From an archaeon (GTDB taxonomy: Archaea; Thermoproteota; Nitrososphaeria; Nitrososphaerales; Gagatemarchaeaceae), in assembly GCA_021819035.1 (NCBI GenBank), contig JAKASL010000001.1:1-64000 (forward strand): a stretch of DNA of 64,000 nucleotides, read 5' to 3'. Positions 27,447-36,505 of the stretch are shown here, piece after piece. A program made the translations under genes and the position numbers. The notes beneath the pieces are model-generated. The model made no database searches and was not told where the DNA came from. It saw only the letters and a list, made by a program, of their open reading frames with translations. Within the stretch, counting starts at the first letter, position 1, and each line of letters opens with the position of its first letter.

Positions 27447-27861
27447 CGCCGGCCCCGTTGCTCTCCTGCTCCAAGCAATATGTCGGAACATGGTGGTCGG
27501 TGTCCCTAGAAAGAATGCGGTTGGCTGTAGTAGGCTAAGATTCGCGCGGGAAGAAGAGCGGTGGCTTACTCAGCAAGGTATCATCTTTGTGCACCGGCGA
27601 TGTTGTGTCCATAAAATGCGGATGGTTGTTTGAGACTCCTGAAATGATAGGATGGACCTACTGCTAGACACTCCCAGCGACTCCAATGGGTTGGTAGGTC
27701 TCGCCACGAGCGAGGGTCCAGCCAGCAGCTTCATCCTTTCTACAGGTTGGATGAGAATTGCGGCGTCAAGTCTCTTTAACATGATTCTCAGGGACATGAG
27801 GCTTCAGATTAGACGAAAGGTCGCTGTTCCGTCGCTGGATGACTAACCTGCAGTAAGAAGG
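27447..27861. other. Gap of 400 bases between carrier gene and tRNA
   Basis: Only a 64-codon plus frame (27652-27846) is seen, with no motif and weak ribosome site. Nothing else recognised. Confidence 0.3.
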
Positions 27862-30799: not shown

Positions 30800-31720
30800 T
30801 CAGGATTGCACCGTCGAGCGCCTGAGCGCTTCGACTTCAGCTTTGCGGGGGAGGGCTGGGATGACTTCCTCTTTGGTGACCGTGAGGGCCCCCGCGGCGT
30901 TGGCGAGCCGGACCGCCTCTTCCATGCCCTCTCCTTCTGAAAGCGCCATTGCGAGGGCCCCATTGAACGCGTCACCTGCCCCCGTCTCGTCCACCGCTTT
31001 CACGCGAGGGGCAGGTACGGCGTATGACCCACTTTCGGTGGCCACGTACGCCCCTCTTTCACCGAGTGTGACGATCACCGTCCGGGGTCCCCTCTTCAGT
31101 ATGGCTGCCGAACCGCCTTCGAGGCTGTCGGTTCCTGCAAGCAGCCGGAACTCTTGTTCGTTGGGTGTGATAACATCCACCTGCGACAGGTCGAGTTCTG
31201 ATGCAGGTACCGCAGGAGCCGGGTTCAGAATCACCAATGCTCCCTCTTCCCTACCGACCTTGGCCGCTGCCGTGGCTGTCTCGACTGAAATCTCAAGCTG
31301 AGTAAGCACCACCCCACAGCCAGCGATGGCCCCCCTGGACTCTGTGATGTCAGCCGGGGAGAGGTCGAGGTTAGCCCCTGGGGCAATGGTGATGACGTTA
31401 GCGCCGGTGCCTTCGCTAACGACTATCAGCGCGGTGCCAGTGTGCTTCGCGACCCGCCTGACCCGTTCTGATGCGATTCCCTCTGACTTCCACAGCAGGA
31501 AGGCCTCGTCTCCACTTCCGTCCCTTCCCACACAGCCTATGAATCGCACTTCACCGTTCAGCCGTCGGGCGGCGACGGCCTGGTTAGACCCCTTCCCTCC
31601 AGGCCCTTTGGAGTAGCCTGTGCCCATGACAGTCTCGCCCGGTCTGGGGAGGCGTAGCACCCGTATCGTCTCGCTGGCATTGTAACTCCCGATGACGGTG
31701 ATGGGCCTCATTTGTGCCAT
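30800..31720 (-). CDS. Ribokinase-like PfkB sugar kinase
   Basis: 306 residues. G-G-K-G-S-N-Q-A-V-A-A at 41-51 and the ATP/anion-hole motif D-E-T-G-A-G-D-A-F-N-G-A near 252-263, with Asp as base. The spacing matches ribokinase more than fructokinase, with N-E-Q-E-F in the expected place. It phosphorylates ribose or a nucleoside using ATP. It lies 84 bases downstream of nrdJ on the same strand; co-transcription is possible, linking ribose and deoxynucleotide supply. Confidence 0.85.
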   Translation of the reverse strand: MAQMRPITVIGSYNASETIRVLRLPRPGETVMGTGYSKGPGGKGSNQAVAARRLNGEVRFIGCVGRDGSGDEAFLLWKSEGIASERVRRVAKHTGTALIVVSEGTGANVITIAPGANLDLSPADITESRGAIAGCGVVLTQLEISVETATAAAKVGREEGALVILNPAPAVPASELDLSQVDVITPNEQEFRLLAGTDSLEGGSAAILKRGPRTVIVTLGERGAYVATESGSYAVPAPRVKAVDETGAGDAFNGALAMALSEGEGMEEAVRLANAAGALTVTKEEVIPALPRKAEVEALRRSTVQS

Positions 31721-31804: not shown

Positions 31805-34138
31805 CTACTCGCACTTCGAGTAGCCGCACGTATTACAGTGGTAGCACCCGTTCTCGAACACCAGAGTGTTCTCATGGCAGTCAGGACAGGTGCCTGTCCC
31901 TCCCTTGGACGCCTGTTTCCCCTTGGCTTCATCCACGAAGCCTGATTCCTTGACCACGCGGTTGAGGGTCAAGAGTTCCAGGGCTTTCGCGATGGCGTCC
32001 GGGATGGACTGCAGCTGGGTCCCCTCGTCCCAAGACACGTACTTCCCCTTGATCCCTTTCAGGGTGGAGATGACGTTCTTGATGTCCCCTCCATGCTGGA
32101 GGTACAGGCTGATCAGCCTGCCGAGCGCGGCTGCGTCTGCGTTCTCATCAGCCCCGGACTTCCCCAGCGTAACGAAGACCTCCTTGATCGCACCTCCGAC
32201 GAGGTTCGCTGTAAGGTAGATGCTCCCCTGGGGAAGTTTGAGTTTGAGGGTCCTCCCCTCCATCACCTTGGGTCGCTCGAAGGCTGCGGCAGGCTTCGGA
32301 GCCTCGGATTTCTTGGCGGCCTTCTCGGTCTCAAGGATTCCTTCTCTGCTCCCTTCTCTGTAGACTGTGATGCCCTTGCATCCCATACGCCATGCGAGCA
32401 GGTAGATCTTCTCGACCTCCTCAGGCGTTATCTCCTCCGGGAGGTTCACTGTGCTGGATATGGCGGTGTCGATATGTTTCTGAATCGTCGCCTGCATCTT
32501 CACCCTCATCTCCGGTTTAATCTGGTGGGCGGTGACGAAGTAGTTGGGGAGTTGGCCCTCGTCTCTTGTTCCCGTTGCTGCCATGTATTCCTTCACGAGA
32601 AGATGGAAGACTTTGAACTCCCCTTCACTCAGCGACTTGCTCCTCCGCGTGTAGTAGAGCGCGAAGACAGGCTCGACGCCGCTGCTGGTCCCAGCGAGGA
32701 TCGATCCGGAACCCACAGGCGGGATTGTGGTGACGGCGGCATTCCTGATCCCCTGGGCCTTGATCTTTTCCTTCACCTTCTCCTCAAGTCTTGAGATGAA
32801 CGGCTGGGCCAGGTGTTTGTCGGCATCGAATGCAGGGAAGCTCCCTTTCTCCTTCGCAAGTTCGGACGAGTAGTCATAGATCACATTCTTGATCCTCTCG
32901 AACAAATGGTCTACGAACCCGATCGTCGAATCCTCGTCGTATTTCAGCCCTAGCTTGATGAGCATGTCCCCTAGACCAGTAATCCCCATTCCGATTCTCC
33001 TGCTCCACAGGGATGCCTCTTTCTGCTGCGGGAGGGGGTGCCTCTCCGCATTGTAGTCAAGGACGTTGTCCAAGAACCTGACGCCGTATTGGGCGGCTCT
33101 GGTGAGCTGGTCCCAGTCGATGCTCGCTCGCTCGGTAAACGGGTCCTTCACGAAGGCGCTCAGGTTTACCGAGCCCAGGCAGCAGCACCCATAGCTTTCG
33201 AGAGTCTGCTCGCTGCAAGGGTTGACTCCCTGTACCTCCATGCCGTTGTATTCAGTGGTTGACTCGCGCTTGATGGCGTCCCAGAAGAGTACCCCGGGTT
33301 CCGCAGACTGCCAGGCTCCATTGACGAGAGACTTCCAAATCTCCCTGGCCCTCACCATGCGGTTCACTTCGACCTTCTCATTCTTGAAGTGGAGCAGGAA
33401 GTCTCCGTCGGTCTCAACAGCTTTCATGAAGTCATCGGTGATCTTTACCGATATGTTGGCATAGTTGACCTTCTTGAGATCCCGTTTTACGCCGATGAAG
33501 TCAATCACGTCAGGATGGTCTACCCTAATAGTGATCATGAGGGCCCCCCGCCTCCCTGCCTGGCCGATAGTCCCGGTCGTAGTCGAGAGGAGCTCCATGA
33601 ACGAAACCGAACCAGAGCTGTAGATGGCGGAGTTATTCACCGGTGCACCCCTTGGCCTCAGGACCGAGATGTCCGTCCCAACTCCCCCGCCGAAGCTGTA
33701 CGTCCGAGCGGCTTCCTTGCACCAGTCGAATATGGACTCAATCGAGTCTTCTTTGATTTTGAAGAAGTAACAATTCAGAAGCGTGGACTTCCTCGCCTGC
33801 CCCGCGCCGAACAGGACCCGTCCTCCTGGGACAAACCGATAGTTCTCAAGAAGCCAGTAGAACTTGTTGGCCCATTCTCTTCTCTTCTCCTCGTCCTTCT
33901 CGGGGGAAGCGAGCTCCTTTGCGACCCGGCGCCACATGTCCGTCGGGACGCTCTCAATCTGCCGCCCTGCCGCGTCTCTCAGCGCGTACTTCTCATAGAA
34001 GACCCGGGCGCGCAGCTCGTCTCCTCCGAACGCCGCCAGAGTCTCCACTGGGATTCTGACTTCTCCTCTCGTAGCCTCTCCCAAGTCCGGAGAGTCGTGT
34101 GGTTGTTCAACTATCGACGTCATAACCTTAGCCTTCAC
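31805..34138 (-). CDS. nrdJ: Adenosylcobalamin-dependent ribonucleotide reductase (class II)
   Basis: 777 residues. Motifs include N-C-Y-F-F near 126, S-F-G-G-G-V-G-T-D, G-V-N-P-C-S-E-Q-T-L and P-P-V-G-S-G-S, followed by a C-terminal zinc ribbon with C-P-D-C and C-Y-H-C-N-T-C. Class II enzymes reduce ribonucleotides with a B12-generated thiyl radical and need no oxygen. There is no ATP-cone at the N-terminus of this protein, which makes the separate ATP-cone protein next door interesting. The start is GTG at 34136-34138, about 20-25 bases after TTATATAT, so leaderless. Confidence 0.95.
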   Translation of the reverse strand: MKAKVMTSIVEQPHDSPDLGEATRGEVRIPVETLAAFGGDELRARVFYEKYALRDAAGRQIESVPTDMWRRVAKELASPEKDEEKRREWANKFYWLLENYRFVPGGRVLFGAGQARKSTLLNCYFFKIKEDSIESIFDWCKEAARTYSFGGGVGTDISVLRPRGAPVNNSAIYSSGSVSFMELLSTTTGTIGQAGRRGALMITIRVDHPDVIDFIGVKRDLKKVNYANISVKITDDFMKAVETDGDFLLHFKNEKVEVNRMVRAREIWKSLVNGAWQSAEPGVLFWDAIKRESTTEYNGMEVQGVNPCSEQTLESYGCCCLGSVNLSAFVKDPFTERASIDWDQLTRAAQYGVRFLDNVLDYNAERHPLPQQKEASLWSRRIGMGITGLGDMLIKLGLKYDEDSTIGFVDHLFERIKNVIYDYSSELAKEKGSFPAFDADKHLAQPFISRLEEKVKEKIKAQGIRNAAVTTIPPVGSGSILAGTSSGVEPVFALYYTRRSKSLSEGEFKVFHLLVKEYMAATGTRDEGQLPNYFVTAHQIKPEMRVKMQATIQKHIDTAISSTVNLPEEITPEEVEKIYLLAWRMGCKGITVYREGSREGILETEKAAKKSEAPKPAAAFERPKVMEGRTLKLKLPQGSIYLTANLVGGAIKEVFVTLGKSGADENADAAALGRLISLYLQHGGDIKNVISTLKGIKGKYVSWDEGTQLQSIPDAIAKALELLTLNRVVKESGFVDEAKGKQASKGGTGTCPDCHENTLVFENGCYHCNTCGYSKCE

Positions 34139-34159
34139 CCCGGTGCTTGTGATATATAA

Positions 34160-34198
34160 TTCCGAGTAGGCTTATCCGGAGTTAACCATCTCACCGGA
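34160..34198 (-). promoter_or_regulatory. Candidate operator upstream of nrdJ
   Basis: Directly behind the nrdJ TATA box (34149-34158). In gene sense it reads TCCGGTGAGATGG then TTAACTCCGGA: two TCCGG copies, the second inside the palindrome TCCGGA, plus the palindrome GTTAAC. The position suits a regulator such as the adjacent winged-helix protein. No binding evidence exists. Confidence 0.35.
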
Positions 34199-34271
34199 GC
34201 CCGCGCTTTTCTCCGCGACATGAGACGTTCAGCTGTGAAATGATATTGACAAAGGAGCTCCAGCCAGATGT

Positions 34272-36359
34272 CTAGCCGGCGGTTGAATACTGAGACGTCG
34301 CCACAGACTTGCACCTAGGGCACCTGGCCGCGCTCTGTGGCAACTTCGCTCCGCAGTTTCTGCAGACAGAGATGGTCCTGTCCACCTTGAAGTAGGCAAG
34401 CTTGGGCGTCGCGTTAAGAATGAGGTTGTATATTCCCCTGACCTCGTCGGCAGACCCGTCCAGGGTGACAGAAATCCCTCCGCGTAACCCTGCGGAGAGT
34501 TTCGCCATGTAGTCCATCTTCTCCGGGTTCTCTAGGTCGCCCAGAAGGAGCCTGGGTGCCTGAGTGTATGCCCCTCTCATGAGGGGTTGGAGGTTTGCCT
34601 TCCCGTATTTCTCAGAATCAAGGTTTGCGAGCCTGAGCGCGCCGTCCAGGTCTAACATCGCCATGCCTAGCCTGTCAATCTTGGTCGACTTGTCGTCAGC
34701 CACTTGGGTGGCCGTGCCCGCTATCTTGTCGGCAAGCTCGTAACGGGAGGCCGTAGTCGGGTCCCTTATCAGGCTGGCAAGGGTCTCTTCGAGGCCGACC
34801 AGGTTCATGATGAGAGGCATAGTGTCTGAAGTCACGGCGTCAGAACCAGACGCCAAGGACGGAAGCAGGCCCCTCTTCAATGCCCTCTCAATCAGCCTCC
34901 TCCTCGTTGATAGCGCATCCGCTGCTACCCCGATAAGGAGGGCTAACTTCGCCCTAAAGTAAGTCTCGTCCTGGTTGGAGTCGTAGGCTAGCCTGGGGAG
35001 GTTCAGGCTAAGACCATGGAGGACGCTTATGTTGTCCGCCTGGGACTCCTGAGCGAGGACGTTGGCGTTGAGCCCGAGGAAGCTCCTCCGCTGATCTGAG
35101 GAGAAGAATGCAATTCTCCCGCCGTTGAATATAATCGATGCTGCGTCCTTCAATGTCTTGGTCTCATCCACTCTGTTGGGCTTCGCCAGGAGGAGTCGGA
35201 CGTCAGGCCTGGGCGTCTCCTCGACGTAGCTTCTATAGGCGCCGAGGGCGGCGTCCAGTGTCTTGTCCAAGACTTCTCGGCCGACGTCGTCATGCTTGTA
35301 TGGGTTGAGATCGATCGTGATTGCCGGCCCGGTCGCTCCAGCTACGGGCGAGCCGATGACCTCATAGAACCTAAGGAACAAAGACTCAAGTTCCCTCTTC
35401 CCCTTTGACCTGCAGTATGGGCCGATATATTGGAGGAAGTTGCGTAAGGTCACCTCGTCAGAGACCTCCCTAGTAAGCATGGACGTCATGTTGAGGACTA
35501 TATTCAACGCCCTTTCGGCGTTCTCAGGGCTCGGTATCATCGAGGTGTTGAGTATCTTCCCCTTTGGGTTGAGCCCTGCGGATCTTACTGAGAGCAGATC
35601 GACGAACACAGTGTCAGGGGAGAGCCCCCACGAGCCCGCGTTGGTGATGTGGATCTCGCCCGAGAGGTGGGCGTCTGCAACGTCCCTTGGCAGCTGCTCC
35701 AAGAGGAGGTACTCAGAGAACACCTGTTTCCCGGTCTGGTGAATCAGCGACTCGACGTTCCCCCCCTCGTCCCCAGCCCTTCCCAAAAGCTGAGTGACGT
35801 CGTATATTGGCATGCCCAATCTGGTGAGCTTGTGCCTGTATTCTTCCATGCTGTGCTCCACAAGGAGCGCATTGACTATCTCGCGTATGAGTGGGGCGGT
35901 CAGGTACTGGGTTTGAAATTTGTACAGTCTGGATTCGGTTTCGCTAGTGATCTTCTGAGCCAGCTCCACGGGCATCCCTGCCTCCTTCACCAGAGACTGG
36001 AGTATCTTGTTGGCGTTGAACTCCTCCATCGTCTGATGCGAAGTCCGCACATACAGCTTCCCGCTCTCCACGAGGGACTGCTCTTCTATCTGCCTGGTCA
36101 GATTTAGCACAAGCCGACCGAGGTTGGTGACCGTGTATTTCCTCTCCTGCCTGTTGAGCTGAATGAGGAGCTGTTTCACGAGTTTACGGAGGTGGTAGGC
36201 GAATTTCCCAGATTCCTTCTTAGACTTGAAACCAGCCAGGGTCTTCAGGGCGCTGTAGGTCAGAGGACCTTTGATGTTCAGTATCCTCAATATTTCGAGT
36301 CGCTGCGGAGACGCAATCACACTGTAGATTGTCTTGACCCTGCGAGGAGCTGCCTGCAA
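34272..36359 (-). CDS. Winged-helix + ATP-cone + inactive NrdD-like fusion, putative dNTP-sensing regulator
   Basis: 695 residues in four parts: an ArsR-like winged helix (about 1-95), an ATP-cone (about 102-192, starting K-L-Y-V-R-T-S), an NrdD-like body (about 205-660) and a zinc ribbon (Cys666/669/680/683). Anaerobic reductases carry the glycyl-radical loop after this ribbon, but here the chain stops 12 residues beyond the last Cys. The body has one Cys (316), so the thiyl pair also seems absent. I infer a transcription factor that reads ATP/dATP and controls nrdJ, which follows after 133 bases on the same strand. The TTG start is 25 bases after GTTAAATAC. The family name is certain only by domains. 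Confidence 0.82.
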   Translation of the reverse strand: MQAAPRRVKTIYSVIASPQRLEILRILNIKGPLTYSALKTLAGFKSKKESGKFAYHLRKLVKQLLIQLNRQERKYTVTNLGRLVLNLTRQIEEQSLVESGKLYVRTSHQTMEEFNANKILQSLVKEAGMPVELAQKITSETESRLYKFQTQYLTAPLIREIVNALLVEHSMEEYRHKLTRLGMPIYDVTQLLGRAGDEGGNVESLIHQTGKQVFSEYLLLEQLPRDVADAHLSGEIHITNAGSWGLSPDTVFVDLLSVRSAGLNPKGKILNTSMIPSPENAERALNIVLNMTSMLTREVSDEVTLRNFLQYIGPYCRSKGKRELESLFLRFYEVIGSPVAGATGPAITIDLNPYKHDDVGREVLDKTLDAALGAYRSYVEETPRPDVRLLLAKPNRVDETKTLKDAASIIFNGGRIAFFSSDQRRSFLGLNANVLAQESQADNISVLHGLSLNLPRLAYDSNQDETYFRAKLALLIGVAADALSTRRRLIERALKRGLLPSLASGSDAVTSDTMPLIMNLVGLEETLASLIRDPTTASRYELADKIAGTATQVADDKSTKIDRLGMAMLDLDGALRLANLDSEKYGKANLQPLMRGAYTQAPRLLLGDLENPEKMDYMAKLSAGLRGGISVTLDGSADEVRGIYNLILNATPKLAYFKVDRTISVCRNCGAKLPQSAARCPRCKSVATSQYSTAG

Positions 36360-36505
36360 CCCGACCTGGCGTCGAGGTCAAAAGTATTTAACGCTATGAC
36401 GACCCGATTTTATCATCGGTGCGGAAGCTGGGTCGAGCAGATCCGGTTCGCTGCCACCATAGCATGGCGAGAGCGTTTCAGCGGCCTGCCAACAGTGGTA
36501 AGGGC

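Follow-up and report, generated by a model that had tools for sequence, protein, structure and literature searches.

The sequence of an archaeal protein, here termed NrdX, and of the DNA that flanks its gene suggests that it acts as a switch for the adjacent ribonucleotide reductase (RNR) gene. NrdX is encoded in the window, that is, the whole stretch of 64,000 nucleotides of DNA that was analyzed, and is, judged from alignment, a pseudo-reductase, real and widely conserved, from which the catalytic residues have been lost. We consider it probable that this dead enzyme has been turned into a local transcription regulator, in which a winged helix would bind a palindromic DNA site and an ATP-cone would sense nucleotides, so as to control the adjacent RNR. 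The best reading is of an autoregulated, probably nucleotide-sensing protein that would be NrdR-like in action but of a different build; the binding to DNA, the ligand and the direction of control are all putative.

The features of the locus are collected in Table 1. The nrdX reading frame opens with a TTG codon and stops 12 residues past the last Cys, and the reading frame and Pfam matches bear out the four-part chain of 695 residues that was described in an earlier note on this DNA. The ATP-cone scored 29.9 bits against PF03477 (cut-off 25.8) and the body matched Pfam NRDD with an E value of 4.4e-26; the NCBIfam NrdD model, which requires 326 bits, gave 83.5, the HTH_20 score of 24.6 lies under the cut-off of 27, and the zinc-ribbon match around residues 666-683 scores under the curated Pfam cut-off. 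DUF7347, ATP-cone and NRDD were all found by Pfam in 27/27 members from the order of the window, and in 33, 32 and 32, respectively, of the 33 members from other orders. At E ≤ 0.001, HTH_20 was matched in 27/27 members from the order and HTH_5 in 21/33 from the others.

Table 1. Positions of genes, protein domains and candidate regulatory sites in the window
Feature	Position	Strand	Remarks
nrdX	34272..36359	-	winged helix, ATP-cone, dead NrdD body and zinc ribbon; 695 aa
Winged helix, residues 11-85	36105..36329	-	Pfam DUF7347; weaker HTH_20
GFKSKKESGKFAYHLRKL, residues 43-60, putative DNA-reading part	36180..36233	-	invariant in 27/27 rows
ATP-cone, residues 103-174	35838..36053	-	Pfam
NrdD-like body, about residues 213-660	34380..35723	-	profile match, alignment, structure comparison
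Cys4 zinc ribbon, C666, C669, C680, C683	34311..34364	-	no glycyl-radical loop after it
nrdJ, class II B12-dependent RNR without ATP-cone	31805..34123	-	ORF opens at GTG 34138; conserved start ATG 34123
Candidate operator GTCAAAAGTATTTAAC, nrdX promoter	36377..36392	+	exact; binding putative
Candidate operator GTCAATATCATTTCAC, between nrdX and nrdJ	34235..34250	-	one mismatch; binding putative
TATA-like box of nrdJ, TTATATA	34153..34159	-	by eye; about 75 bp downstream of the candidate operator

An AlphaFold2 model of NrdX was produced from a 27-row alignment (A1), with a mean pLDDT of 81.8 and a pTM of 0.69. The structure prediction that the earlier note had proposed thus yielded a model that matches NrdD structures: in a Foldseek comparison with the PDB, the first 36 rows were all class III RNRs (TM 0.43-0.57 by query length), including those of T. 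maritima, S. thermophilus and P. copri and the 1h78-1hk8 series. Alignment A1 was built from a protein search of genomes and is independent of the winged-helix pattern scan described below. Mean pairwise identity within the order was 0.79 for the winged helix, 0.72 for the ATP-cone and 0.25-0.40 for the body; the much better conservation of the winged helix and ATP-cone argues for a regulator.

To assess the catalytic residues, 41 NrdX sequences were aligned to four intact NrdDs that adjoin NrdX in other orders. Here, NrdX columns were equated by motif, rather than by structure, with Cys171, Cys416 and Gly711 of P. copri NrdD (PMC11226230). None of the 41 NrdX has Cys at column 387, that of the second Cys, or at column 613 in the radical-Cys loop, and 2/41 have it at column 614 of that loop, the alignment of which is loose. 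At the radical Gly column, Gly was observed in 3/41 sequences (L144, L149 and L163) and a gap in 13/41. In the NrdX of the window, Thr250 occupies the second-Cys column and Arg425/Ser426 the radical-Cys columns. A larger comparison involved 23 intact NrdDs, consisting of 19 of 30 fetched loci that passed a filter for length, NLPR and glycyl motif together with the former four (two rows are identical); Cys was found at the second-Cys column in 23/23 intact NrdDs versus 0/48 NrdX, and the radical-Cys column aligned too poorly for scoring. Alignment to the four intact NrdDs confirms that, as claimed in the earlier note, the radical Gly is gone and so are the catalytic Cys residues. Its count of a single Cys in the body also holds; this residue, C316, is not conserved.

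A decayed glycyl loop persists in several relatives from other orders (for example SRSSATYIPLDLW in L146) and in none of the order members shown. The glycyl motif of L154, a pattern match, was rejected, since the aligned C-terminus has no Gly at that column. No R-x-x-G-Y motif was detected in any frame between the nrdX stop and nrdJ, so that a frameshifted glycyl motif is absent from this interval, and the window's own assembly (88.2% complete) contains no match to a paired activase NrdG (TIGR02491); its single NRDD match is NrdX itself. That NrdX still works as an atypical class III reductase is scarcely credible. The NrdD fold and zinc ribbon are retained, with all four zinc Cys in 38/41 NrdX, and the three relatives with Gly at the radical column would be in keeping with activity, but within the order the body has neither a conserved Cys nor a glycyl loop. 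Given that catalytic Cys, radical Gly and NrdG are all missing, a working reductase was rejected.

In a quick IQ-TREE analysis, one branch splits the 48 NrdX from the 23 intact NrdDs with an SH-aLRT of 100. A single origin of NrdX is favored by this tree rather than proven, because it has no root and IQ-TREE flagged both long branches and unusual composition. Shortened forms of NrdX, in frames of 550-718 residues, occur in L151 (family f29), which at 550 residues is the shortest, and in L150, L152 and L164 (family f24), none of which has the zinc ribbon.

Relatives of NrdX were identified by protein search in 52/61 genomes (60 relatives in addition to the window's own). A pattern scan of named genome contigs returned 383 stretches, of which 342 encode a relative, and the best 80 were retained. 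The pattern was the winged-helix segment itself and, therefore, conservation of the winged helix was not counted on this set. Where a group is given, these relatives belong to the Nitrososphaerota/Thaumarchaeota, with Gagatemarchaeum, Nitrosotalea, Nitrosopumilus and Nitrososphaera among them; some others are labeled simply as archaeon and one as bacterium. Across the phylum, 255/299 genomes match NrdX at E ≤ 0.001, some of them through weak partial matches near 1e-4. Carriage by viruses was rejected, as none of the 91 pattern stretches from viral contigs codes for a relative. Among the matches listed from open PMC papers, no title or abstract describes the NrdX architecture.

The earlier note had suggested looking in archaeal genomes for this fusion next to nrdJ; with RNR genes of any type counted, the result within the order was uniform. 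An RNR reading frame comes next on the same strand at 74/74 named loci with enough DNA; these derive from the best 80 relatives, six of which, with <1 kb downstream, were set aside. Further genome sets of the order gave 46/46 (3 of 49 set aside) and 7/7, and the three sets overlap in genomes and are not additive. The partners comprise several class II types, among them NrdJ proteins with an ATP-cone of their own (L033, L041 and L047) and RNRs of the long PF08471 type (L037 and L039). This constancy of linkage across RNR types counts in favor of a regulator. In other orders, an RNR gene adjoins NrdX in 5/33 loci, as an intact nrdD in L136, L142, L143 and L160 and as nrdJ in L134; its absence from the remaining 28/33 loci counts against the regulator.

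In the window's own assembly, the nrdJ gene beside nrdX gives the sole match to a class I/II RNR barrel. The gap between the two genes had been put at 133 bases; a genus alignment places the conserved nrdJ start at ATG 34123 rather than GTG 34138, and the gap is therefore 148 bp. A PfkB-like (by appearance) sugar-kinase reading frame follows on the same strand about 85 bp past nrdJ (30800-31720, minus strand). Elsewhere, nrdD matches are split, in an intein-like manner, within frames of 888-2826 residues in G061, G065, G066, G072, G084, G096, G130 and G152.

The claim that the neighboring RNR has no ATP-cone of its own holds for the NrdJ of the window and does not hold generally, and the lending of an ATP-cone to a cone-less NrdJ was rejected as the general function of NrdX given that several neighbors carry their own. 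A related explanation, which we regard as unlikely, is that NrdX is mainly a protein-contact partner or inhibitor of the neighboring RNR, supplying it with an ATP-cone and dNTP sites, and that the winged helix serves only in autoregulation. The constant linkage and the cone-less NrdJ of the window are consistent with such a role, as is retention of the large NrdD body, since a simple repressor could do without it. However, the type of partner changes completely, often to one that has its own ATP-cone, and it is the winged helix, and no surface of the body, that is the best conserved part of NrdX.

A transcription regulator would require a site on the DNA, and inspection by eye revealed a palindromic candidate pattern, GTCAA-N6-TTRAC. 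The exact candidate operator in the nrdX promoter overlaps a TATA-like sequence, TTAAATA (36385-36391, minus strand). Given that the candidate site covers this box, repression of nrdX is suggested. The candidate site for nrdJ lies far enough above its TATA-like box (Table 1) that repression is not suggested by position alone, and this distance counts against the reading of NrdX as a regulator of the kind proposed. It is possible, if doubtful, that NrdX activates the RNR gene, with the operator above the TATA box recruiting TFB/TBP at low dNTPs and the site on its own TATA box conferring negative autoregulation. The placement of the two sites, one well above the nrdJ box and the other over that of nrdX, is consistent with activation; against it, a conserved block near GGTTAAC (34181-34187), noted by eye, may hold a second site nearer the nrdJ TATA box.

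Another exact GTCAA-N6-TTRAC is present at 27765-27780 of the window, between a transporter-like reading frame and a convergent one, and is probably due to chance. A wider regulon in the window's own genome was rejected: besides the exact site at nrdX, three are present, of which one lies between convergent genes and the others look like chance. Long inverted repeats around TCTCATTGACTC/GAGTCAATGAGA were seen by eye in the nrdX-RNR gap of L033, L083, L086 and L087. Those of L033 and L083 gave no Rfam match, and in the loci L033, L083, L037 and L040 the only structured RNA detected was a tRNA elsewhere in L033.

Among 70 non-redundant loci, the exact pattern was observed upstream of nrdX in 23 (0.03 in shuffled sequence) and between nrdX and the RNR gene in 12 (0.05 in shuffles), and with up to one mismatch in 37 (1.1) and 42 (2.4), respectively; these counts are partly in-sample, given that the motif was first spotted by eye in some of the same loci. 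In a hold-out set, a site within one mismatch was found in either region in 15/23 loci. Of 300 random stretches of 300 bases drawn from these loci, 26 also contain a site within one mismatch, and some of these may overlap real sites. The hold-out divides sharply: all 15 loci outside L104-L131, a Nitrosopumilus/Nitrosotalea-type group, have a site and 0/8 inside it do, a split that was chosen after weak scores in that group were known. Outside the group, the site is found upstream of nrdX in 10/15 loci (shuffles 0.12) and in the gap in 14/15 (shuffles 0.33); for L032, L036 and L038, 25 bases of the region preceding nrdX were known in advance. The enrichment in the hold-out supports the regulator for part of the order. 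The absence of the site from 8/8 held-out L104-L131 loci, despite the same helix in the order alignment, is evidence against it; the helix segment of L047 and L048, for instance, is the same as in the rest of the order.

Variants of the form GTCAA-N5-TTGAY and CTCAA-N6-TTACA were noted by eye in some gaps of the L104-L131 group. Upstream of nrdX, L047, L048, L107 and L113 have in common a stretch near TCACAARTCTTATTTA, also noted by eye, that is without GTCAA-N6-TTRAC and may be a promoter or a variant of the site. In other orders, where the winged-helix segment differs from that of the window's order, an exact site was found in 1/30 non-redundant loci (L143), with no further one within one mismatch, and the pattern was rejected as an operator there.

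In 20 genomes of the window's family, 49 distinct exact sites were found, 17 of them within 150 nt of nrdX and distributed over 15 genomes. An exact site stands beside nrdX in 16/20 genomes when that of G353, which adjoins the nrdX core, is included; G003, G013 and G016 have nrdX without an exact site, and nrdX was not located in G354. Counted by strand, the pattern gave 64 matches versus 51 for a reversed-pattern control. Given that the total is barely above this control, the signal lies in position rather than in number, and a wide regulon is not indicated. We judge it improbable that the main targets of NrdX lie elsewhere and that its linkage to RNR is inherited. Such an arrangement would fit the other-order loci without a neighboring RNR and the held-out L104-L131 loci in which the operator was not found, but the linkage within the order holds across several RNR types, and the nrdX locus in these 16 family genomes carries one of the few exact sites.

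The proposed local regulation of RNR by NrdX invites comparison with NrdR, the bacterial RNR repressor, which binds ATP/dATP as well as DNA in front of RNR genes; on the DNA side, NrdX has a candidate site. Both are ATP-cone proteins, and control of RNR transcription is proposed for NrdX. NrdX differs in that a winged helix comes first, followed by a whole NrdD body with a zinc ribbon of the NrdD kind at the C-terminus, and in its length. NrdR is a chain of 140-220 residues that opens with a DNA-binding zinc ribbon (PMC9110341) and continues with an ATP-cone, a build that NrdX does not share. NrdR (TIGR00244) had no match in the genome of the window; any match at all was obtained in 26 of 151 genomes, none in the window's order, and a match above the cut-off in 7/151, all from family f18. 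By hand-checked coordinates, NrdR adjoins nrdD in six of these genomes (G061, G121, G133, G145, G163 and G181), and the remaining one, G199, falls outside the nrdD matches listed. In other f18 genomes (G114, G127, G139, G157, G169 and G175), it is NrdX that is found no more than about 1 kb from nrdD, again by hand; those with NrdR also carry NrdX elsewhere. The positions suggest that NrdR and NrdX have been exchanged as the regulator at nrdD in this family.

With NrdD itself, NrdX has in common the fold, the order of ATP-cone and then body, and the C-terminal Cys4, and it differs in having lost the radical Gly and catalytic Cys and gained a winged helix. It resembles ArsR-like winged-helix regulators (DUF7347, HTH_5 and HTH_20) in its winged helix, which in the window scores below the HTH_20 cut-off, and in a putative palindromic site, but is unlike them in being joined to a dead reductase. 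A parallel is provided by NrtR, a Nudix-derived NAD regulator in which a dead metabolic enzyme is combined with a winged helix that senses a nucleotide of the pathway; enzyme, pathway and ligand all differ from those of NrdX.

The proposed mechanism is as follows. The winged helix of NrdX would bind GTCAA-N6-TTRAC both over the TATA box of nrdX and ahead of the neighboring RNR gene. As in NrdR and in the ATP-cone of NrdD, the ATP-cone, perhaps together with leftover pockets in the NrdD body, may read the ATP/dATP or dNTP state, and this state would alter the assembly of NrdX or its affinity for DNA. High dATP would then lower transcription of nrdX and RNR, the sign being putative. The control of nrdJ by an NrdR analogue, as envisaged in the earlier note, gains support, short of proof, from the linkage, the catalytic loss and the candidate site, which part of the order has at each of the two promoters. 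More tentatively, though still plausibly, NrdX may represent a phylum-wide set of RNR-derived transcription factors in which the ATP-cone reads overall ATP/dATP and the dead body, by way of former specificity or substrate pockets, the balance of dNTPs, together setting the amount of whichever RNR is in use.

PMC9110341 calls NrdR rare in archaea, and NrdR has no match in the order of the window. A conserved regulator beside the RNR gene in ammonia-oxidizing and related archaea would answer what controls RNR in these organisms, and the candidate operator and the RNR linkage make such a role for NrdX directly testable. If correct, NrdX would be to archaea what NrdR is to bacteria, and would show clearly how an essential enzyme can come to sense the pathway to which it belonged. 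Those members whose glycyl loop is decaying would then document the passage from an enzyme to a sensor of its own product.
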